Part shown: one piece after another, positions 9,997-30,166 of the stretch | How the letters are laid out: each line of letters begins with the position of its first letter | Position numbering within the stretch: position 1 is the stretch's first letter | DNA from: Clostridiales bacterium | GTDB taxonomy: Bacteria; Bacillota; Clostridia; Caldicoprobacterales; DTU083 | Assembly: GCA_012837325.1 (NCBI GenBank) | Contig: DURK01000079.1 | Location: 1-35,314, forward strand | Direction: 5' to 3' | DNA: 35,314 bases | Program-made: the position numbers and the translations under genes | The notes under the pieces: generated by a model | What the model was told of the DNA's origin: nothing | The model's input: only the letters and a program-made list of their open reading frames with translations | Database searches by the model: none

Positions 9997-10974
9997 ATGT
10001 TAAAATATTTTGTAAGCAGAATTCTATTGCTGATACCAATGCTATTGGTAATCGGCCTGGTTGTTTTCATTGGTTTGGAACTGGCGCCAGGAGATCCCAT
10101 AACGGCTATGATCCCGCCCGACCAGTTATCTTCTATGACCTTGGAGGATATAGAGGCTATGAGAGAAAGTCTGGGATTAAATGACCCGATGCTGGTTCGC
10201 TATTTCCGCTGGCTTTTCAATCTCATCAAAGGTGATATGGGATATAGCGTCGTAACAGGTACACCTATTGCTAGTATAATCCAAAACCTGCTGCCTGCTA
10301 CAATTAAATTGACATTCGCTGCACTGATCATATCAACGATTATCGGCTTATTATTTGGTATTGTTTCCGCAATCAAAAGCAACACCTTCATAGATTATAT
10401 TTCATCGGTTCTTGGTGTAATTGGTATTTCGATGCCGGAGTTCTTTATCGGTATACTGGCTCTGTTGATTTTTGCCATACGTCTGAAATGGTTTCCGGCT
10501 CAGGGGCGTACAGATGTAGGCCTTAATGCACTCCAATCTTTGAAATATCTTGTACTACCCGCCTGCAGCTTAGGGATGGTGCTGGCGGCAGCACTAATGC
10601 GGTATACACGAAACGCTATGTTGGATGTATTAAATAAAGACTACGTTAAAACAGCGCGAGCAAAGGGTCTGCCTGAATGGAAGGTTTATTACAAGCATGT
10701 ATTTCGAAACTCCCTCATGCCCATCAGCGTTTTGCTTTTGTTACGTCTTCCTATGTTGATTGGAGGATCTGTCGTAATTGAACAGGTCTTTGGTTATGCA
10801 GGAGTTGGTTCCCGTCTGCTGGCAGCCATTAATGGAAGCGACTACCAACTGGTATTGGTAATTATATTGCTGCTTTCAACTGTATCCCTATTGGCCAGTG
10901 TTCTTATAGACATGTTTACTGCATTGCTTGACCCCCGTGTTCGCCTGGGTGGAGATATTGGAGGTGCAAAGTAA
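9997..10974 (+). CDS. Opp/Dpp-type ABC transporter permease (DppB-like)
   Basis: A 325-residue integral membrane permease with six predicted membrane segments: an N-terminal one at about residues 10-30, then a cluster from about 100 to the C-terminus. The cytoplasmic loop ARAKGLPEWKVYYKHVFRNSLMP is the EAA-type coupling motif that contacts the ATPases. The N-terminal LVVFIGLELAPGDPI is typical of the OppB/DppB branch. GAAAGGAGC lies upstream of the ATG. It is the first gene of a four-gene operon of two permeases and two ATPases; the binding proteins are encoded on the other strand at 14012-17939. This transporter class carries peptides but, in many Clostridia and Thermotogae, also oligosaccharides. 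Its place here favours a sugar-derived ligand (inference). Confidence 0.92.
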   Translation: MLKYFVSRILLLIPMLLVIGLVVFIGLELAPGDPITAMIPPDQLSSMTLEDIEAMRESLGLNDPMLVRYFRWLFNLIKGDMGYSVVTGTPIASIIQNLLPATIKLTFAALIISTIIGLLFGIVSAIKSNTFIDYISSVLGVIGISMPEFFIGILALLIFAIRLKWFPAQGRTDVGLNALQSLKYLVLPACSLGMVLAAALMRYTRNAMLDVLNKDYVKTARAKGLPEWKVYYKHVFRNSLMPISVLLLLRLPMLIGGSVVIEQVFGYAGVGSRLLAAINGSDYQLVLVIILLLSTVSLLASVLIDMFTALLDPRVRLGGDIGGAK

Positions 10975-10975
10975 T

Positions 10976-11857
10976 ATGGCAACAGTATTAGCATCAAAAC
11001 AAAAAGTTAAAAAATCCAGCCTTGCAAAAAGAAACCTGCAAAAACTTTTGAACAATAAGCTTGCAGTCTTTGGATTGATTGTAGTCACAGCTATGATTCT
11101 GGCATGTATTGCCGCACCACTGCTAACCCCTTATGATCCGATGAAGATATCCCTTTCCGAACGTGATCTCGAACCAAGCAGTAATCATTTGTTTGGCACG
11201 GATAAGCTGGGCCGCGATGTCTTTGCCCGTACCTTGTATGGAGGCAGGATGTCCATCTTGATTGGGCTGTCTGGTGCGATCGGTGGTATGTTGCTTGGTG
11301 TTATATTTGGAAGCTTATGTGGTTTCTTTGGTGGTACATTGGATGCCATTTTTGTTAAGATAGCCGAACTGGTTTCGGTAGTCCCGCAATTGCTCCTGGT
11401 ATTGGTCTTGTCAACCTTTTTAGGAGCTGGTGTCCAAAACTTGATTTATGTATTTATGTTTACAGGCTGGGTGGCTACCTTCCGTCTGGTAAGAGGCCGG
11501 TTCTTTTCCTTGCGTGAAGAAAGCTTTGTCGAAGCATGCCGTGCATTTGGAATCGGAAATTTATCCATCGCCTTTAAGCATATCCTTCCAAACTGTCTGG
11601 GTCCCGTGGCTGTACAACTGACCCTTAATACCGCAGGCTTTATTTTACAGGAAGCAGCTTTGTCCTTTATCGGCCTTGGTGTTCCCTCTGGTGTTCCTAC
11701 CTGGGGTAACATCATGAATGCTGCCAAAGAAATTATTGTGATAACACAAAGCCCTTGGCTCTGGATCCCTCCGGGAATCGCCATAGCTTTATTTGTTCTT
11801 GGTGTCAATTCCTTAGGCGACGGGATGCGGGATGTACTGGATCCCAGCCAACTGTAA
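10976..11857 (+). CDS. Opp/Dpp-type ABC transporter permease (DppC-like)
   Basis: A 293-residue permease of the OppC/DppC branch. A long cytoplasmic N-terminus (MATVLASKQKVKKSSLAKRN) leads into a first membrane segment at about residues 30-52. The conserved FGTDKLGRDVFARTLYGGR follows, then the EAA loop EACRAFGIGNLSIAFKHILPN and GLGVPSGVPTWGNIM. ATG 10976 begins one base after the TAA of the first permease with GGAGGTG 9 bases before it, indicating tight coupling. It forms the membrane pore as a heterodimer with the preceding protein. Confidence 0.92.
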   Translation: MATVLASKQKVKKSSLAKRNLQKLLNNKLAVFGLIVVTAMILACIAAPLLTPYDPMKISLSERDLEPSSNHLFGTDKLGRDVFARTLYGGRMSILIGLSGAIGGMLLGVIFGSLCGFFGGTLDAIFVKIAELVSVVPQLLLVLVLSTFLGAGVQNLIYVFMFTGWVATFRLVRGRFFSLREESFVEACRAFGIGNLSIAFKHILPNCLGPVAVQLTLNTAGFILQEAALSFIGLGVPSGVPTWGNIMNAAKEIIVITQSPWLWIPPGIAIALFVLGVNSLGDGMRDVLDPSQL

Positions 11858-11869
11858 GGAGGAGCATAT

Positions 11870-12880
11870 ATGAACAAACAGGACTATATACTAAGTATTA
11901 ATGATCTGAAAACACAGTTCAAAATTGGCAAAAGAGTTGTGAAAGCCGTTGACGGTGTAACTCTGAATGTACGACGTGGTAAAACCATGGGGCTGGTAGG
12001 AGAAAGCGGTTGCGGAAAAAGCGTGACCGCACATTCCATCATGCAGCTTCTGCCCAAGGCCGGTTCAATAAAAGAAGGCGAAATTATATTCCGACCACAA
12101 AATAGTGAGGAATTTGATATTGCAAAGTACAGAAAAACAGATAAAAAACTTAGAAATATGCGGGGAAGGCAAATCTCCATGATTTTTCAGGATCCGATGT
12201 CTTCTCTGAATCCTGTCTATCGAATCGGAGATCAAATTATTGAGAGTATTATCCAACATGAAAGAATATCCAAAAAAGCTGCCATCAAACGTACGGTAGA
12301 CATGTTGGAAATGTTAAGCATTCCACAAGCAGATAAAAGGATAATGGATTACCCTCATCAGTTTTCCGGTGGTATGAAGCAGAGGGTCATGATTGCCATG
12401 GGGCTGATAACCAATCCTGAACTCCTGATTGCAGATGAGCCCACCACCGCTCTTGATGTTACAATCCAAGCGCAGATATTGGAGCTTATGCAGCAAATGC
12501 AAGAACAGCTTGGATTTACGATTATCATCATTACCCATAACATGGGTATTGTTGCTGATATGGCCGACGACATTGCAGTAATGTATATGGGTAAGATCAT
12601 GGAGTTCGGTGCAAAAGAAGATATCTTTTTACGCCCCACTCATCCCTATACCAGAGCTTTACTAAAGTCTGTACCTGTACTGGGCAATGGCGGTAATGAT
12701 CGGCTGGAGCCCATTCGAGGTACTACACCTGATCCCTCCGATATGCCAGAAGGATGTTCATTTATGCCGCGTTGTGATCTTGCAACAGAGAAATGTAAAA
12801 ATGCACCGCCATATGAAGATGTTGGGAATGGGCATATGGTTCGATGCTGGTACGCCAAAGGAGGAGCTGCGAATGAGTAA
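11870..12880 (+). CDS. Opp/Dpp-type ABC transporter ATPase (DppD-like)
   Basis: A 336-residue ATP-binding subunit. The Walker A is GESGCGKS, the Q-loop FQDPMSSLNP, the signature FSGGMKQR, the Walker B LLIADEPTTALD and the switch His is in IIITHN. The C-terminal oligopeptide/dipeptide extension contains four cysteines in the pattern C-x5-C-x6-C-x-n-C (CSFMPRCDLATEKC and the later MVRCW), typical of the Fe-S-like C-terminal domain of Opp/Dpp ATPases. AAGGAGG precedes the ATG. Energises import together with the next gene. Confidence 0.94.
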   Translation: MNKQDYILSINDLKTQFKIGKRVVKAVDGVTLNVRRGKTMGLVGESGCGKSVTAHSIMQLLPKAGSIKEGEIIFRPQNSEEFDIAKYRKTDKKLRNMRGRQISMIFQDPMSSLNPVYRIGDQIIESIIQHERISKKAAIKRTVDMLEMLSIPQADKRIMDYPHQFSGGMKQRVMIAMGLITNPELLIADEPTTALDVTIQAQILELMQQMQEQLGFTIIIITHNMGIVADMADDIAVMYMGKIMEFGAKEDIFLRPTHPYTRALLKSVPVLGNGGNDRLEPIRGTTPDPSDMPEGCSFMPRCDLATEKCKNAPPYEDVGNGHMVRCWYAKGGAANE

Positions 12881-13922
12881 TCAAAGTAATCATACTGAGA
12901 TTCTTCTTGACATAAAAAACATAAAGAAATATTATCCCATTCAAGCAGGGTTGTTCCGCAGAACCATCGGCCATGTAAAAGCAGTCGATGATGTAAGTCT
13001 GTATGTAAAAAGGGGTGAAACCCTTGGACTGGTTGGTGAAAGCGGATGTGGAAAAACCACTTTGGGAAAATGTATCGTAAGGCTTCATCGTCCTACAGAA
13101 GGCGAGCTTCGCTATCGGTTTGATGAGGACGGTGAATATAAAGACCTGCTGTCTCTGGATAAAAAGGAAAGCTTTAATGCCAGAAAGAAGATTCAAATGG
13201 TATTTCAGGATCCATACTCTTCCCTGAATCCCATTAAAAATATTTTAACAGCATTTGATGAACCCTTGAGGATTCATGGCTGGACCAATGCCAACGAGAG
13301 AAAAGAACGAGTTGCTGAACTTTTAGAGTCGGTCAACCTCCATGCTGATTATATGTATCGCTATCCCAACGAATTTTCAGGGGGACAGCGTCAACGCATA
13401 TGTATTGCGCGAGCCATGTGCGTGAATCCCGATCTTATCGTTTGTGATGAACCGGTTTCTGCATTAGACGTTTCCATACAGGCACAGGTTCTGAACCTAA
13501 TGAAAGATCTCCAGAAAGAGCATGGGCTCACCTATGTCTTCATTGCTCATGACTTATCTGTAGTTGAGTATATGAGTGATCGTATTGCAGTTATGTATCT
13601 GGGCAAGGTAGTTGAGCTTGCCTCTGCAAAGAAATTGTATTATCACTTTGAACACCCATATACGGAAGCATTGCTATCCGCTATCCCCATTCCGAAGATT
13701 GGTGAAAAGCGTCAACGCATTATACTGGAAGGTGATGTTCCCTCTCCTGCCAATCCCCCTGCTGGATGTCGATTCCATACCCGCTGTCATAAAGTAATGG
13801 ATATTTGCAGGGTGAAGAGTCCAGAACTGCGTCCAATGAAAAATGACCCCGATCACCTTGTTGCATGTCATTTAGCAGATACGGTGGAAGATATAGCAGA
13901 AATACCTGCTGATGCAGTGTAA
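12873..13922 (+). CDS. Opp/Dpp-type ABC transporter ATPase (DppF-like)
   Basis: A 349-residue second ATPase with Walker A GESGCGKTT, Q-loop FQDPYSSLNP, signature FSGGQRQR, Walker B LIVCDEPVSALD and switch His in FIAHD. The C-terminal cysteine cluster (CRFHTRCHKVMDIC and VACH) is present. The start at ATG 12873 overlaps the end of the first ATPase by 8 bases, with AAAGGAGGAG directly upstream; longer in-frame starts lie wholly inside the preceding gene and are not supported. It completes the transport engine and is the last gene before a bidirectional terminator. Confidence 0.94.
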   Translation: MSNQSNHTEILLDIKNIKKYYPIQAGLFRRTIGHVKAVDDVSLYVKRGETLGLVGESGCGKTTLGKCIVRLHRPTEGELRYRFDEDGEYKDLLSLDKKESFNARKKIQMVFQDPYSSLNPIKNILTAFDEPLRIHGWTNANERKERVAELLESVNLHADYMYRYPNEFSGGQRQRICIARAMCVNPDLIVCDEPVSALDVSIQAQVLNLMKDLQKEHGLTYVFIAHDLSVVEYMSDRIAVMYLGKVVELASAKKLYYHFEHPYTEALLSAIPIPKIGEKRQRIILEGDVPSPANPPAGCRFHTRCHKVMDICRVKSPELRPMKNDPDHLVACHLADTVEDIAEIPADAV

Positions 13923-14011: not shown

Positions 14012-15754
14012 TTATTCAGCTGCATTAATCGTCCATTTGTGGAGATAACGCTCGTAATTGGACCATTCGTTGGAGAGAACGAGCTCATCGGGAAGATTCA
14101 CTCTGGCTGTGTTGAATACCTGAATATTTCTTAGAGCAAACAATGGAATATTCCACAGCATCTCTTCCGTTTCAACTTTCTGAATCTCTTTGATTACTTC
14201 AATACGTCTGTCAGGATCGGTTGTTACCCAAAGTTCTTCAAGCAGAGCGTCCAAGCCTGGATAATCAGTAGGATAAATACTGCCAGCTATGGAAGTTCCA
14301 ATAGTGGGGCTATACCAACCATTGTAAGCCTCCTCAACTGCCATGGCAGAGAGACCGGCATAAATCATATGATAGTCTCTTACTTCATAGATCTGGGAGA
14401 CCAGATCACCAGTTAACAGAATCCACTCTGCTTTTACGCCGATATCAGCTAGATATGCAACAATAGCATCCATTAGATCTGCAGAACCTTGGTCAGCATA
14501 ATAGCAGGCCAGCTTCACTGTTTCGTTAAAATCAAAGCCTGCTTCTTCAAGCAGCTGCTTTGCAAGCTCGGGATCATAAGTCAGTTCGTAAACTTCATCA
14601 TTATAATAGGGCATAGATGCAGGTACTTTGCTGTTTGTAAGGGTTGCCTGTCCAGGCATAAGATTATCAATGATAGCCTGCCTGTCAATCGCATGACCTA
14701 GTGCACGTCTGGCACGGATATCACTGAACAAATCATTGCCTTCTCCCTTTGGTCCATAGCTGTTCCACATGAGGTATCTTATAAAATAAATATCTGTATA
14801 AAATGCTTCATAATTGGGATTCTGCAGAGCAGCCTGCGCTGTTGCGAGATCGTTGGTTTGAAAGAAGTCAACTTCATCTGAAAGGGCGCGGGTTGCATAA
14901 TCTGCCTCAGACATCTGGGTGAGCTTGACCTGTTTTATTTGAAATTCTTCATCACCAAAGTAATCATCGAACACTTCAAGCAGTGCGTAGTCATTGGGAA
15001 CAAATTCAGTGATCTTGTAGGGGCCAGTGCCTATCGGCCAGTCATAGAATTCGGAAGTGTTTAAGGTCAAAGGATCCAGTCCTTCTATCTTATGACGGGG
15101 AAAAATGTTAAATTGAGCCAATGCCAGAAGGAAGGTACCTGTGGGCTTAGCCATGTCAATTGTGATTACATTGCCGTCAACCGAGATGCCTTCCAAGTCA
15201 TCAGCAGCTGTTTTGCTGTCATCAGCCATGTATTCGGCAGCACCTTTGATATTACTGAGAGCAGTTTTAATAACTCCGTTCACTTGCGATGCCTTTAATG
15301 CAGTTTTAATGGAAAATGCTACATCATCAGCGGAAAAATCTTCGCCGTCATGCCATTTTACACCTTCATGCAGTGTAAAGGTATACTGCATACCGTCGTC
15401 AGATTGTGTCCACTCTTTTGCCAGGTCACCATAAACCGGGTTGAGATCGGAGTCCAGTCTTAACAGCCTGGAAAAGAGCATCATTCTAACGATGCCTCCA
15501 TAATCAGACCAAGAACCAGTCCATTTATCACTCATGCCTTGCATCGTAGGTAAAAGAAGCATGTCAGGACCTATTCCCGTACTTGGCTCAGGTTCCGGTT
15601 CCGGTTCCGGCTCATCGGCCGGTTTTGGTGTTGCGGGCTCCTGAATCTCGGGAGCTTTGGTTGGTTCTACATCTGTTGGCTCTCCCTGTCCGCAACCGGC
15701 CAGAAGACCGATAAGCATCAACACAGAGAGAATCAGTGCGAGAGTACGCTTCAT
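14012..15754 (-). CDS. Family-5 (peptide/nickel-type) ABC solute-binding lipoprotein, copy 1
   Basis: A 580-residue extracellular binding protein. A lipoprotein signal peptide (MKRTLALIL..., lipobox LLAGC with Cys at residue 21) is followed by a Pro/Glu-rich linker and the SBP family-5 domain (YTFTLHEGVKWHDGEDFSADDV, FPRHKIEGLDP, YDWPIGTGPYKI). It aligns without gaps to copy 2 (16197-17939); I count about 73 differences, roughly 87% identity. ATG 15754 has AAGGAGG about 8 bases before it; longer starts lie in the structured leader. It has its own promoter (16035-16063) and a leader of about 270 bases. It is the likely ligand receptor for the convergent ABC operon at 9997-13922. Confidence 0.93.
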   Translation of the reverse strand: MKRTLALILSVLMLIGLLAGCGQGEPTDVEPTKAPEIQEPATPKPADEPEPEPEPEPSTGIGPDMLLLPTMQGMSDKWTGSWSDYGGIVRMMLFSRLLRLDSDLNPVYGDLAKEWTQSDDGMQYTFTLHEGVKWHDGEDFSADDVAFSIKTALKASQVNGVIKTALSNIKGAAEYMADDSKTAADDLEGISVDGNVITIDMAKPTGTFLLALAQFNIFPRHKIEGLDPLTLNTSEFYDWPIGTGPYKITEFVPNDYALLEVFDDYFGDEEFQIKQVKLTQMSEADYATRALSDEVDFFQTNDLATAQAALQNPNYEAFYTDIYFIRYLMWNSYGPKGEGNDLFSDIRARRALGHAIDRQAIIDNLMPGQATLTNSKVPASMPYYNDEVYELTYDPELAKQLLEEAGFDFNETVKLACYYADQGSADLMDAIVAYLADIGVKAEWILLTGDLVSQIYEVRDYHMIYAGLSAMAVEEAYNGWYSPTIGTSIAGSIYPTDYPGLDALLEELWVTTDPDRRIEVIKEIQKVETEEMLWNIPLFALRNIQVFNTARVNLPDELVLSNEWSNYERYLHKWTINAAE

Positions 15755-16028
15755 GTAGTTTTCCTCCTTTTTTAAGTTTGTAAGATCCTTGAAAGCATAG
15801 AAACCTTTCAAGTTTATGTTAAAAGGCTGTGAATTACCATGCCTTTTAAGCACCAAAGGGAATGAATATATCTATGTGTATTGTAGAATCATCGTTCGAA
15901 GCATTGATAATGCTCATTTAATTGTTGATTTATCTGGATTTTGTTATATGCTTTATCGTAAACTATTTGCATTTATTTGAAAATAACCTATCACAAATAT
16001 ACAACTGATACAAAATATGTGAATCATT
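15755..16028 (-). promoter_or_regulatory. Long structured 5' leader of binding-protein gene copy 1
   Basis: The leader contains two consecutive hairpins. Hairpin A is CTTGAAAG / CTTTCAAG (15788-15812, 8 pairs, 9-base loop). Hairpin B is TTAAAAGGC / GCCTTTTAA (15819-15849, 9 pairs). Equivalent hairpins with different stem sequences stand at the same distance before copy 2. A separate small inverted repeat, GCATT-GAT-AATGC (15901-15913), has no counterpart there. Confidence 0.6.
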
Positions 16029-16034
16029 AATATT

Positions 16035-16063
16035 ATATTATTTTAAAAAGTAAAAAATGTCAA
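16035..16063 (-). promoter_or_regulatory. Promoter of binding-protein gene copy 1
   Basis: On the minus strand TTGACA-N17-TAATAT. The same -35, spacer length and -10 occur upstream of copy 2 (18142-18170), inside otherwise diverged DNA, which supports both. Confidence 0.75.
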
Positions 16064-16128
16064 TACGCCCGACTGAAATATACCTCTATTTTATTTTCAG
16101 CTGTTTCTATAGAATATTTTAATCAGTA

Positions 16129-16163
16129 AAAAAACCCTGAAAGGAAACCTTTCAGGGTTTTTT
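16129..16163 (-). terminator. Rho-independent terminator of binding-protein gene copy 2
   Basis: A perfect 16-base-pair stem (AAAAAACCCTGAAAGG / CCTTTCAGGGTTTTTT) with an AAA loop lies 34 bases after the copy 2 stop and before the copy 1 promoter. The two binding-protein genes are therefore separate transcription units. Confidence 0.92.
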
Positions 16164-16196
16164 AGCTGTTTCTTAATCTTTTAAGTGCTGTTTCAA

Positions 16197-17939
16197 TTAT
16201 TCCGCTGAATTAAGTGTCCACTTGTGGAGATAACGCTCGTAGTTGGACCATTCATTGGAGAGAACGAGTTCGTCGGGAAGATTGACTCTGGCGGTATTAA
16301 TTACCTGGATATTCCTTAAGGCGAACATGGGAATGTTCCACAGCATCTCTTCCGTTTCAACCTTCTGAATCTCTTTGATTACTTCAATGCGTCTGTCAGG
16401 ATCGGTTGTTACCCAAAGCTCTTCAAGCAGAGCATCCAAACCGGTAAAGTCTGTTGGGTAAACATTTCCGTACATGGAGTTCGAAATCGTAGGATTATAC
16501 CAGATATTATACGCTTCTTCAACTGCCATGGCTGAAAGGCCTGCATAGATAAAGTGGTAGTCTCTGGTTTCCCAAATTTGAGAGGTTAAGTCACCGGTTA
16601 GCAGAACCCATTCTGCCTTCATGCCGATATCAGTCAGATAAGCAACAATTGCATCCATAAAGTCTGCAGAGCCTTGGTCGGCATAGTAGCAGGCAAGCTT
16701 GATTGTTTGATTGTAATCAAATCCTACTTCATCAAGGAGCTGTTTGGCAAGTTCCGGATCATAAGTCAGTTCATAAACATCGTCATTGTAATAAGGTAGA
16801 GCAGCAGGCACCTTACTGTTGGTAAGGGTTGCCTGTCCAGGCATCAGATTATCAATCAGAGCCTGTCTGTCAATCGCATGACCGATTGCACGCCTTGCAC
16901 GGATATCGCTGAAAGGATCGTTACCGTCTCCCTTGGGTCCTTTACTGTTCCATTGCAGATATCTTACAAAATAGATATCTGTATAGAATGCTTCATAATT
17001 GGGGTTCTGCAGGGCAGCCTGTGCTGTTGCAAGGTCATTGATATGGAAGAAGTCGATTTCATCAGCAAGTGCACGGGTTGCATAGTCTGCTTGAGTCATT
17101 TGTGTCAGCTTAACCTTTTTAATTTGGTATTCTTCCTCACCAAAATAGTCTTCAAACACTTCAAGCAATGCATAATCATTGGGAACGAACTCAACGATCT
17201 TGTAAGGTCCGGTACCGATCGGCCAGTCATAGAATTCGGAAGTGTTTAAGGTCAAAGGATCCAATCCTTCAATTTTATGACGGGGGAAAATATTAAATTG
17301 AGCCATTGCCAGAAGGAATGTACCTGTGGGCTTAGCCATGTCAATCGTGAGTACATTGCCATCCACCGAGATCCCTTCCAAGTCATCGGCAGCTGTTTTG
17401 CTATTGTCTGCCATGTATTCGGCAGCACCTTTAATATTACTGAGAGCGCCTTTGATAACACCGTTGACCTGCGCTGCCTTCAAAGCGGTTTTAATAGAAA
17501 ATGCAACATCATCAGCGGAAAAATCTTTGCCGTCATGCCATTTTACACCTTCATGCAGTGTAAAGGTATACTGCATACCATCGTCAGATATTGTCCACTC
17601 TTTTGCCAGGTCGCCATAAACCGGGTTAAGATCGGAGTCCAGTCTCAGCAGCCTGGAGAATATCATCATTCTGCCTATGAGACCATAGTTATCCCAAGAA
17701 CCGGGCCATTTGTCACCCATATTTTCCATGGTGGGCAGAAGGAGCATGTCAGGACCTATTCCTGCGCTTGGCTCAGGTTCAGGCTCCGGATCTGTATCAT
17801 CGGCGGGTTTTGGTGTTGCGGGTTCCTGAATTTCTGGAGCTTTGGTTGGTTCTACATCTGGTGTGCCCCCTTGTCCACAACCGGCCAACAGACCGATAAG
17901 CATGAACATGGAGAGAATCAGTGCCAGAGTGCGTTTCAT
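16197..17939 (-). CDS. Family-5 (peptide/nickel-type) ABC solute-binding lipoprotein, copy 2
   Basis: A 580-residue lipoprotein with lipobox LLAGC (Cys21), an acidic Pro-rich linker and the family-5 binding domain. It is a tandem duplicate of copy 1 spaced 2185 bases away start to start, and the promoter and leader are duplicated too. Differences are spread over the protein but concentrated at residues 478-499 (10 of 22 residues differ, against about 13% overall). In this family that part of the C-terminal lobe can lie near the ligand. AAAGGAGG precedes ATG 17939. No permease gene is adjacent on this strand, so it presumably feeds the transporter at 9997-13922 (inference). Confidence 0.93.
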   Translation of the reverse strand: MKRTLALILSMFMLIGLLAGCGQGGTPDVEPTKAPEIQEPATPKPADDTDPEPEPEPSAGIGPDMLLLPTMENMGDKWPGSWDNYGLIGRMMIFSRLLRLDSDLNPVYGDLAKEWTISDDGMQYTFTLHEGVKWHDGKDFSADDVAFSIKTALKAAQVNGVIKGALSNIKGAAEYMADNSKTAADDLEGISVDGNVLTIDMAKPTGTFLLAMAQFNIFPRHKIEGLDPLTLNTSEFYDWPIGTGPYKIVEFVPNDYALLEVFEDYFGEEEYQIKKVKLTQMTQADYATRALADEIDFFHINDLATAQAALQNPNYEAFYTDIYFVRYLQWNSKGPKGDGNDPFSDIRARRAIGHAIDRQALIDNLMPGQATLTNSKVPAALPYYNDDVYELTYDPELAKQLLDEVGFDYNQTIKLACYYADQGSADFMDAIVAYLTDIGMKAEWVLLTGDLTSQIWETRDYHFIYAGLSAMAVEEAYNIWYNPTISNSMYGNVYPTDFTGLDALLEELWVTTDPDRRIEVIKEIQKVETEEMLWNIPMFALRNIQVINTARVNLPDELVLSNEWSNYERYLHKWTLNSAE

Positions 17940-18135
17940 ATAGTTTTCCTCCTTTAGTGAATATCTTATGTTGGAAGCTTTTCATACTTCCAATATATGT
18001 TCAAAGGCATATGATTTTTATGCCTCTAACACATCACATGGAATATTTATTTGAACTTTTCATATAACCTTATAATTTTCGTCTGTTATTACTAAGTCGT
18101 TCTCATTAAAATTGTATATATTATATGTTTCATTG
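17940..18135 (-). promoter_or_regulatory. Long structured 5' leader of binding-protein gene copy 2
   Basis: Hairpin A is TTGGAAG / CTTCCAA (17971-17993, 7 pairs, 9-base loop). Hairpin B is AGGCATA / TATGCCT (18005-18025, 7 pairs, 7-base loop). Hairpin A begins 32 bases before the ATG (34 in copy 1) and A and B are 11 bases apart (6-8 in copy 1). The stems differ in sequence from copy 1 yet remain paired. Confidence 0.6.
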
Positions 18136-18141
18136 AATACT

Positions 18142-18170
18142 ATATTATTTTATAAATTAAGAAATGTCAA
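18142..18170 (-). promoter_or_regulatory. Promoter of binding-protein gene copy 2
   Basis: On the minus strand TTGACA-N17-TAATAT, identical in both hexamers and spacing to the copy 1 promoter. The predicted start gives a leader of about 195 bases. Confidence 0.75.
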
Positions 18171-18298
18171 TATCTATACTATCGTTTTCGGTTGTTTTTA
18201 AAAAACAGGCATTTTCAAAGCTCGGTTTTGAATTCGATGCTGGATTTATTGCTGCATGGTTTAGCTGTGCAAAATTTCAATGCTGCCTGCTTTTCCTG

Positions 18299-18396: not shown

Positions 18397-18464
18397 ATTA
18401 TTGAAAGAAAAGGTAAAACAATGACTTGGAAAACAATACGAAAAACTGATTGCGAGGTGTTCCA

Positions 18465-19568
18465 ATGAAAGTAATTCATCATTCCATCATTTATGAGAAT
18501 CCTTTACCCCAGCTGCGAAGCCGGCAGAGCCTGTTTCCCTGGCTGTGCGAAATGCCCGATGGCTCTCTACTGGCCAGTCACTGCATAGGTGAAGCTTTTG
18601 AAAGTATTGATGGTACAAGCTATCTTTCTAAAAGTTTTGATGGAGGAAAGACGTTTTCCAAACCCAAACCAATGTTTGAACGAGATGAACGTCTTCCTAA
18701 CAGCAATGATACCTGCAAAGTAACTTATCTCCATGATGGGAGACTGGTTGCTCTTGGCTATGCCTACGAACGTTCTGATCCGGATCTGCCCATAGGAAAC
18801 CCTGAAACAGGGGGCCTGCTGGATGACTTTCTTTTCGTATCTTACTCCTCTGATCAAGGTGATACCTGGTCACCATGGCAGCTGATAGAATGCAGTTGGG
18901 GCCCTCATGTAGAAGCATCCGCACCACTGACTGTATTACAGAGTGGATCTTGGGTCACACCTATTACAGGTTTTCCTAAATGGGATGGAACCAGGACTGG
19001 TAAGAACTGTGGAAGACTTCTCCGTTCAGACGATAACGGAGAAACCTGGTCGGATGATACCATTTGCATGGAATTTGAAGGCGACGAAGTCACCTGCTAC
19101 GAACAACGGCTTTGCCAATTGGAATCCGGTACAGTAGTCTGCATTGGATGGAATGAAGACCTTCGCACTGGCAAGCTGTTGAATAACCATTATACCCTTT
19201 CCCATGACGATGGTAGAACCTTTTCTTCACCCAAAGATACGGGAATAGGAGGTCAAGCCTCCAGTGTATGTGCCATTGGTGGTGAAAAGCTTCTGGCATT
19301 GCATGCGTTAAGAAAGGATACAGATCGCCCGGGCATATATGGCTACATCGTAGATCTATCTTCCGGAAGCTGGGATATAGAAGAGGAACTTCTTATATGG
19401 AAACCTCAGATTCCCATCATTAAGAATGAAAAAATGGCCGAGGTCTTCTCTTTTCTCAAGTTCGGGCAGCCTGGGGCTATTTTGCTTGCTGATAAAGATA
19501 TTTTAGTCAGCTATTGGCGTGAAGAACAAGGAGTATATAAAACCTGTGCCGCTAGAATCCAATTATAG
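18465..19568 (+). CDS. Asp-box (BNR) sialidase-like protein, predicted cytoplasmic
   Basis: A 367-residue beta-propeller protein related to sialidase/neuraminidase-fold proteins. Four Asp boxes (S-x-D-x-G-x-T-W/F) are visible at residues 57-64, 128-135, 188-195 and 246-253. There is no signal peptide or membrane segment, so unlike secreted sialidases it should act inside the cell, possibly on an imported oligosaccharide or sugar-acid conjugate. I cannot confirm the sialidase catalytic arginine triad or Tyr/Glu pair by eye, so a hydrolase role is not certain. ATG 18465 with GAGGTG 5 bases upstream is chosen over an in-frame TTG at 18450. It diverges from the copy 2 binding protein and is probably monocistronic. 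Confidence 0.8.
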   Translation: MKVIHHSIIYENPLPQLRSRQSLFPWLCEMPDGSLLASHCIGEAFESIDGTSYLSKSFDGGKTFSKPKPMFERDERLPNSNDTCKVTYLHDGRLVALGYAYERSDPDLPIGNPETGGLLDDFLFVSYSSDQGDTWSPWQLIECSWGPHVEASAPLTVLQSGSWVTPITGFPKWDGTRTGKNCGRLLRSDDNGETWSDDTICMEFEGDEVTCYEQRLCQLESGTVVCIGWNEDLRTGKLLNNHYTLSHDDGRTFSSPKDTGIGGQASSVCAIGGEKLLALHALRKDTDRPGIYGYIVDLSSGSWDIEEELLIWKPQIPIIKNEKMAEVFSFLKFGQPGAILLADKDILVSYWREEQGVYKTCAARIQL

Positions 19569-22487: not shown

Positions 22488-24161
22488 TTATCGTACCAGA
22501 AACCAATCCTTGATGTTCCTGAATATGTCCAATTCTCCTACAGAGCGAATTCCCCTGACTCGATTGTCTACAAGCAAAGAAGCGGTTCGAAAGTACAAGC
22601 TGATAACCGGCAGCTCATCGGTAAAATGCTTTTGTATTCCCTGATATGCCTCCCGTCTTTCTTCTTCCGTATAAGCTCCTGCAGCTTTGAACAGCAGACC
22701 ATCCAACTCCGGATGGCTGTACCCGAAAAAGTTGTTTCCCTGCTCAACTGCCCAGTCAGAATGAAACACTGGCCGCAGGTCATTCATCGGATCCAGGGTG
22801 TAACCGGTTAAGACCGCATCAAACTCACCGGTTTTAATTTTTTGCTCCTGTAATACATCCCAGGGAAGATCTTCGATTGTTATACGAAAACCGATCTGAT
22901 CCAGCTGTTTTTTAATCAAGTCTGCTGCATCTTTTCGTAAATCATTTTCACTGTTAACCAATATGGTAAAGGCCAGATCGACTGTTGTTTCATCAATTTC
23001 TCTTTCCAGTATGCCATCTCCATCATGATCTTTCCAGCCCGCTTCCTCCAGTATCCTGCCTGCGCGCTTGGGGTCATAATCATAGATGCGATAGCTGCTG
23101 TCATACAGCCAGGAATTGGAAGGAATGGGAGCATCCACGGTCTCCGCATTGTTTAGATAAATCTTGGAAATGATATCTTTTCGATCTATGCCAAAGGCCA
23201 TCGCTTTCCTGATGCTATGATCCTGAAGCAGGGGATTGTTACTGTTCAAAGCCAAAAACTCAAAACTCGAAGTCAGATATTTGTAATGGCCGGCATCGTT
23301 CCGATTCAAACGGGTATTGGCGTAAACCACTGTTGTATCAACCAAATCAATATCACCATTGAGAAAGGCATTTCTTGATTCGTCATTGCTGGCATACACC
23401 TTCCCTTCAATGAAATGAATATATGGTGTTCCGTCCCACCAACTGTCATTTTGCACCAGTCTAATCATATCCCCTTCATATGGATAACCGGGATCAACTC
23501 GATAAGGGCCGGTTCCTACAGGCAGAAAAGAAAGATCTTCTTTGTTCTCAAGTATAAAATCAATGGATTGATAGACGCTCATAGGCAACACCGGAAAGGT
23601 CATAAGATTCAGAATACAATAGGTTGGCTCTCCCAAACGAATGAAAATTGTATAGGGATCACCACCTCGAAGACCATATTCCACTATATTTGTGTTATCG
23701 TATAAATTTTGCTGATAAAAGGAATCCAATGCACCGGTGTGAAGCACTTGTAAGGTAAACAAGATATCTTCACCTGTAAATTGCTGGCCATTATGCCATT
23801 TAACCCCTTTCCGCACATCGAATATCCACAGCCTCCCATCGGGCGAAACCTCCCAATCGGTTACCAGAGAAGGGGCAGGTTTGGACTGTTCATCATAGGT
23901 GATCGGGCTTTCAAAAATCAAGCCCAGAAAGTTTATCAGGTCTCTAGATTGCGTCAATAGAGGATTAAACGTATCAACATCTGTAAGGGGTACTCTAAGC
24001 TCTCCCCCCCTTGTGGGAGCAGACTCAGTCGGTTTTGGCGTGCTTTCCATGGAAGGTTTCTCTTCTTCCGTTAAATGGGCCTCAGGAATCCTTGCCAGCC
24101 CACATGCTGATAACAATGTAATCAACGACATGGAAAGTAGCAGGCAAATGATTTTCTTCAC
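22488..24161 (-). CDS. Family-5 ABC solute-binding lipoprotein, third copy
   Basis: A 557-residue lipoprotein (signal peptide; lipobox LLSAC with Cys20) with the family-5 binding domain: WIFDVRKGVKWHNGQQFTGEDI, LPVGTGPYRV and AGWKDHDGDGIL. It is clearly diverged from the two tandem copies at 14012-17939 and has no permease nearby. The start is GTG 24161 with AAAGGA about 9 bases upstream. It lies 21 bases after the lytic transglycosylase gene in the polA-coaE operon, so it may have been recruited to cell-wall peptide uptake, but that is inference from position. Confidence 0.9.
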   Translation of the reverse strand: MKKIICLLLSMSLITLLSACGLARIPEAHLTEEEKPSMESTPKPTESAPTRGGELRVPLTDVDTFNPLLTQSRDLINFLGLIFESPITYDEQSKPAPSLVTDWEVSPDGRLWIFDVRKGVKWHNGQQFTGEDILFTLQVLHTGALDSFYQQNLYDNTNIVEYGLRGGDPYTIFIRLGEPTYCILNLMTFPVLPMSVYQSIDFILENKEDLSFLPVGTGPYRVDPGYPYEGDMIRLVQNDSWWDGTPYIHFIEGKVYASNDESRNAFLNGDIDLVDTTVVYANTRLNRNDAGHYKYLTSSFEFLALNSNNPLLQDHSIRKAMAFGIDRKDIISKIYLNNAETVDAPIPSNSWLYDSSYRIYDYDPKRAGRILEEAGWKDHDGDGILEREIDETTVDLAFTILVNSENDLRKDAADLIKKQLDQIGFRITIEDLPWDVLQEQKIKTGEFDAVLTGYTLDPMNDLRPVFHSDWAVEQGNNFFGYSHPELDGLLFKAAGAYTEEERREAYQGIQKHFTDELPVISLYFRTASLLVDNRVRGIRSVGELDIFRNIKDWFLVR

Positions 24162-30079: not shown

Positions 30080-30166
30080 GCCGAAGTGGTGGAATTGGCA
30101 GACGCGCTGGATTCAAAATCCAGTGTTGGCAACAACGTGTGGGTTCGAGTCCCACCTTCGGCACCA
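30080..30166 (+). tRNA. tRNA-Leu (anticodon CAA)
   Basis: An 87-base class II tRNA with acceptor GCCGAAG/CTTCGGC, anticodon stem CTGGA/TCCAG with loop TTCAAAA (anticodon CAA), a long variable arm and T-arm GGGTTCGAGTCCC. The CCA end is encoded. Confidence 0.96.

Follow-up and report, generated by a model that had tools for sequence, protein, structure and literature searches.

Two-hairpin 5' leaders before duplicated solute-binding lipoprotein genes in an uncultured lineage of Clostridia

Binding proteins are required in excess of their transporters. Bacilli protect long stretches of downstream mRNA by means of hairpins and ribosome-binding sites that lie close to the start of the message (PMC3997798). 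In Clostridium operons, stem-loops at 3' ends take part in selective RNA processing and stabilisation (PMC8219983). Structured, covarying leaders 5' of transporter genes are found among the cis-regulatory families of Rfam (release 15).

In this study, we follow up a sequence-only reading of a stretch of 35,314 nucleotides from a Clostridiales bacterium (assembly GCA_012837325.1, contig DURK01000079.1; hereafter the window). Two family-5 solute-binding lipoprotein genes, g1 and g2, each follow a leader with two hairpins, A and B. We conclude that this leader, together with that of an orthologue from another family of the order, is a real, probably selected and undescribed structured 5' leader, narrow and lineage-restricted in its occurrence. 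As a type of element the two-hairpin leader is ordinary; what is new is where it occurs.

The genes g1 and g2 are tandem neighbours on the minus strand and share 87% identity with each other (Table 1). Four open reading frames (ORFs), two for oppB/oppC-like permeases and two for oppD/oppF-like ATPases, run toward them and encode the transporter that g1 and g2 likely serve. A terminator-like hairpin lies between g2 and the g1 promoter; the scan called it on the plus strand, its stem is symmetric, and it is taken here as the end of g2. With this terminator between them and the transporter genes convergent, g1 and g2 look monocistronic. The window holds a third, distant family-5 binding-protein gene (22488-24161, minus strand, 26% identity) about 5 kb upstream of g2, which adjoins a coaE/polA cluster and is without the two-hairpin leader. 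A gene for a BNR-repeat (sialidase-like) protein (18450-19568, plus strand) diverges from g2.

The sequence-only reading had described one and the same promoter, TTGACA-N17-TAATAT, before both genes and leaders of roughly 195 and 270 bases. Both descriptions were accurate: the promoter lies in front of each gene, and the leaders measure about 196 nt (g2) and 274 nt (g1), assuming that transcription starts about 7 nt past the -10 box. A strong ribosome-binding site, AAAGGAGG, lies 8 nt 5' of the ATG in g1 and g2. No terminator was found inside either leader by the terminator scan, and the short ORFs in the leaders are not common to them, which gives no shared leader peptide.

Table 1. Features of the g1/g2 locus (window coordinates)
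Feature	Position	Strand	Remarks
g1, family-5 solute-binding lipoprotein, 580 aa	CDS 14012..15754	-	87% identical to g2
g2, family-5 solute-binding lipoprotein, 580 aa	CDS 16197..17939	-	PF00496, E 3.6e-68
g1 promoter, sigma-A-type, TTGACA-N17-TAATAT	16035..16063	-	same architecture at g2 and L008
g2 promoter, sigma-A-type, TTGACA-N17-TAATAT	18142..18170	-	
g1 predicted 5' leader, about 274 nt	15755..16028	-	inferred start site
g2 predicted 5' leader, about 196 nt	17940..18135	-	inferred start site
Hairpin A of g1, 8 bp, 9-nt loop, CTTGAAAG-9 nt-CTTTCAAG	15788..15812	-	
Hairpin A of g2, TTGGAAG-9 nt-CTTCCAA, 7 bp plus G-U	17971..17993	-	
Hairpin B of g1	15816..15853	-	base pairs with conserved ACAU
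Hairpin B of g2, 16 bp, one bulge	17995..18034	-	base pairs with conserved ACAU
g1 Shine-Dalgarno, AAAGGAGG	15763..15770	-	identical in g1 and g2 (alignment A6)
g2 Shine-Dalgarno, AAAGGAGG	17948..17955	-	identical in g1 and g2 (alignment A6)
Intrinsic terminator-like hairpin between g2 and g1 promoter	16129..16163	-	terminator scan
oppB/C/D/F-type transporter genes (9997-10974, 10928-11857, 11870-12880, 12687-13922)	9997..13922	+	convergent to g1/g2

Two hairpins at matching places had been proposed for g1 and g2, and when either leader is folded by itself, both hairpins appear in its minimum-energy structure. They precede the Shine-Dalgarno sequence (SD) in the order long hairpin B, short linker, hairpin A, short open stretch, SD. 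The loop of hairpin A in g2 has 9 nt, or 7 when the G-U pair is counted. Hairpin B sits where it had been placed but is longer than described: pairing continues beneath the AAGGC/GCCTT stem, between (R)UG(U) and a conserved ACAU. A stem of at least 7 bp ending 25-40 nt 5' of the ATG occurs in about 5% of shuffled leaders, so that one hairpin alone is unremarkable. The 294-nt stretch of g1, folded from end to end, is likewise unremarkable (z -1.2). Compared with shuffles, the region preceding the SD is strongly structured, with z of -6.0 in g2, -3.6 in g1 and -2.4 in the orthologue.

Concerning covariation, the stems of g1 and g2 had been said to differ by concerted replacement of both arms. 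Pairing is indeed kept; the arms have not been swapped, as only 2 of the 17 aligned pairs are changed on both sides, and an equal number of kept pairs results in 2-3% of trials when these sites are substituted at random (P = 0.02-0.03). The paralogs differ at 6 of 35 stem positions versus 27 of 47 unpaired ones, and their stems have therefore been conserved more than covaried. Stem B is no instance of replaced sequence either, since AGGCATA and TTAAAAGGC overlap within one AAGGC stem. For the g1/g2 pair alone the covariation claim is overstated. The present case illustrates how misleading a comparison of two paralogs can be about covariation before a true orthologue joins it.

This orthologue (locus L008) is a single-copy gene with 83% amino acid identity from a Clostridiales metagenome-assembled genome of another family of the same order (genome G030; G022 gives the same place). 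ATPase- and permease-sized ORFs in its neighbourhood are likewise convergent. The gene has the promoter TTGACT-N17-TATTAT and a leader of about 250 nt. Folded alone, the leader forms hairpin B with its ACAU base and hairpin A with the stem TTTTGGGG/CCCTAAAA, 30 nt 5' of the ATG. At fourfold-degenerate sites the identity of g2 and L008 is only 48%, and the neutral background has therefore drifted a long way. Between L008 and the paralogs, differences are about as frequent in stems (15-17 of 35-36 positions) as in loops (21 of 44-45 positions). Nonetheless, 17 of 18 scorable pairs are kept against g1 (P = 1.5e-4) and 16 of 17 against g2 (P = 3.3e-3), and six kept pairs are changed on both sides.

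Alignment of the three leaders gives 8 of 18 pairs with double changes and 98% of cells paired, and its covariation score is reached by 2 of 500 shuffles; this test of compensatory change rests on three sequences, two of which are paralogs in one genome. When the partners are slid by 1-3 columns, 34-57% of cells are paired. When the three leaders are aligned directly by sequence (A2), hairpin A falls out of register, and the model-fitted alignment (A8) leans toward structure. Because A8 is fitted to structure, the single-sequence folds and the score gap between two search models are the safer tests. The cleanest test uses model R1, for which g1 and g2 were the sole input: L008 receives 39.2 bits from it, and 18.9 bits from the sequence-only model R3. 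About 20 bits of the L008 score thus come from base pairing, in a sequence unseen by the model. Selection on RNA structure, which the sequence-only reading had deduced from g1 and g2, is supported, but mainly via L008 (double changes, shuffles and the gain of 20 bits). The covariation test that it had proposed finds compensatory changes above chance with L008 included, on three sequences only. The two-hairpin leader was probably present before the tandem duplication and kept in both copies.

The sequence-only reading recognised no known riboswitch in the leaders, and Rfam (release 15) agrees even at permissive thresholds. At the gathering cut-off, the whole window yields only a tRNA at 30080-30163; a permissive search of 15740-18220 returns sub-threshold matches only, none credible over the hairpins. 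The predicted spread to other Clostridia was not found in the genomes searched. R1 found no further member above chance in 30 genomes of the order. The class was screened in thinned form over 391 genomes (Infernal's stricter filters, with the ten best first-look candidates per genome scored), and model R2 found nothing above chance there beyond the three leaders: 22 genomes, two of them the known ones, reached E <= 0.1, whereas chance would give about 39 if the E-values, which are rough, hold. Protein searches of the order, the class and the GTDB collection gave, besides L008, no other homologue above 63% identity, and R1 gave no match at the homologue with 63% amino acid identity (L009).

Two weak matches (L186, L196) were rejected as members; they are alike, their likeness extends into a divergent transposase-like ORF, and partial copies occur in those genomes. 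Each probably lies where a copy of one shared insertion-sequence-like element ends. This apparent insertion sequence (L186:1384-1700, L196:1440-1900) has two outward-facing hairpins at its end, linked by AACATA, and mimics the leader model at chance-level scores. It adjoins a glycosyltransferase-like gene in L186 and lies directly 5' of a binding-lipoprotein-like gene, which reads like the TAXI type, in L196.

Leaders of binding-protein genes in general were also compared. They were hairpin-rich in a first sample from the order (P = 0.002-0.005), and a larger sample was positive before homologues were collapsed (P = 0.0096). Once homologues were collapsed, binding-protein leaders of the order were no more structured than others (mean z -0.78 versus -0.64, P = 0.32). 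The rule that binding-protein genes carry leader hairpins was therefore rejected as evidence, and no general rule backs a stabilising role of the present leader. The intergenic stretches 3' of binding-protein genes, up to the next co-directional gene, are strongly structured (mean z -2.97 versus -0.63, P = 1e-7; loci L124-L183 and L223-L312), which would be consistent with the 3' stem-loops of Clostridium operons that undergo processing and stabilisation (PMC8219983). A recurring hairpin, GTAAAAYCCY...RGGRTTTTAC, lies about 32-74 nt 5' of the starts of four binding-protein-like lipoprotein genes (L161:11325-11361, L239:2632-2665, L253:3755-3790, L310:2163-2195) in three genomes (G014, G015, G018) of one family (f2) of the same order, i.e. 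at only 4 of 312 loci. Its inner stem is variable with pairing kept, and it is possibly a shared leader element of its own.

Regarding function, we favour a constitutive leader that acts in cis and either protects the message or allows its processing and stabilisation, possibly with a translational part. We give this reading a probability of about 0.45, somewhat short of even odds. Such a role is favoured because binding proteins are needed in excess. It is favoured, too, by the protection that hairpins and ribosome-binding sites afford to mRNA in Bacilli (PMC3997798). We infer that the leader is transcribed whole and that it affects stability or translation. Hairpins B and A, close to the SD, would block 5'-to-3' exonucleolytic decay and endonucleolytic entry, and would keep the SD region free from other partners. 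Predicted SD accessibility is mixed, which speaks against the favoured reading. From the predicted start site to hairpin B the distance is about 100 nt in g2 and 175 nt in g1. With the hairpins this far from the predicted 5' end, a classic 5'-terminal stabiliser needs an upstream cut; the leader may be cut upstream of B, which would place B at a new 5' end. Through the two hairpins, each monocistronic binding-protein message would outlive or out-translate the separately transcribed permease and ATPase genes.

In the main rival reading, a putative small RNA or RNA-binding protein would act in trans by landing on the leader, at a site that the hairpins present or flank. Messages of ABC binding proteins are often small-RNA targets, and small RNAs regulate oppA/dppA-type messages in other bacteria. 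The ACAUA segment and the SD region, the only conserved sequence, would suit such a partner; however, ACAU is mostly paired inside B, and no loop motif is conserved. We consider this unlikely. It is improbable that g1 and g2 have an ordinary leader whose chance hairpins were kept through recent duplication alone. The frequency of single 7-bp stems in the right place among shuffled leaders, the weak covariation of g1 and g2 alone and the unremarkable fold of the whole g1 stretch would all agree with it, but all three leaders are strongly structured close to the SD, and L008, from another family, keeps the pairing with different bases; given L008, chance is already unlikely. Both hairpins are inverted repeats and could, as DNA-level palindromes, be operator sites for a dyad-binding regulator. 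Yet the arms of hairpin A differ (CTTGAAAG, TTGGAAG and TTTTGGGG) with pairing kept, the kept pairs include G-U, which is no DNA dyad, and about 100-200 bp separate the hairpins from the conserved promoter upstream of them. The difference in arm sequence among the three leaders argues for RNA over a DNA operator, which we regard as very improbable.

Sensing of a ligand had been offered by the sequence-only reading as one possible function. The hairpins would form the aptamer of a riboswitch or attenuator, and an alternative fold, for example one in which the 3' arm of B pairs with the 5' arm of A or with the SD, would shut the gene off. The element sits 5' of transporter genes, the 3' arm of B carries CCUU(U), which is complementary to the SD, and g1 and L008 can form an alternative B3'/A5' hairpin of 8-9 bp. 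This hairpin is missing in g2, for which reason a switch between B/A and the alternative was rejected; elsewhere, even the best folds that include it are less favourable than B plus A by 4-6 kcal/mol. No aptamer-like conserved unpaired core was found in the three leaders, ACAUA and the SD excepted; unpaired positions before the SD differ at about half of the sites (21/45, 21/44 and 27/47 between leaders). Nor was an expression platform found in them, as regards a terminator or a conserved SD-masking fold; SD pairing is inconsistent across the leaders. With loops and linkers unconserved, no terminator, no conserved alternative fold and no Rfam match, ligand sensing is disfavoured and quite improbable. 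There is likewise little probability that the two hairpins and the ACAU strand form a new cis-regulatory RNA class regulating the synthesis of peptide-binding proteins on a signal, be it ligand, small RNA or protein; such a class would, so far, be limited to a single clade of uncultured Clostridia.

If the favoured reading of a protective or stabilising leader is true, these genes add one more route to an excess of binding protein over transporter, by separate monocistronic genes with protective leader hairpins as opposed to 3' stem-loops inside an operon. Moreover, the tandem duplication offers a natural pair of leaders for asking which parts of the RNA matter.

Compared with known systems, the g1 and g2 leaders resemble the cis-regulatory families of Rfam 15 in being structured, covarying and 5' of a transporter gene, but match none of them at gathering score. 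With 5' stabilisers of the aprE-leader type in Firmicutes (cited in PMC3997798) they share a hairpin together with a strong ribosome-binding site, both in the 5' leader that precedes an exported protein's coding sequence in a Gram-positive lineage. The likeness is one of architecture, and the aprE type has one hairpin at the mRNA 5' end, whereas g1 and g2 have two adjacent to the SD. As with the stem-loops of selective RNA processing and stabilisation in Clostridium (PMC8219983), the hairpins would tune the stoichiometry of ABC-transporter components; unlike those stem-loops, which lie at 3' ends inside operons, they are found in the 5' leader of genes that look monocistronic.
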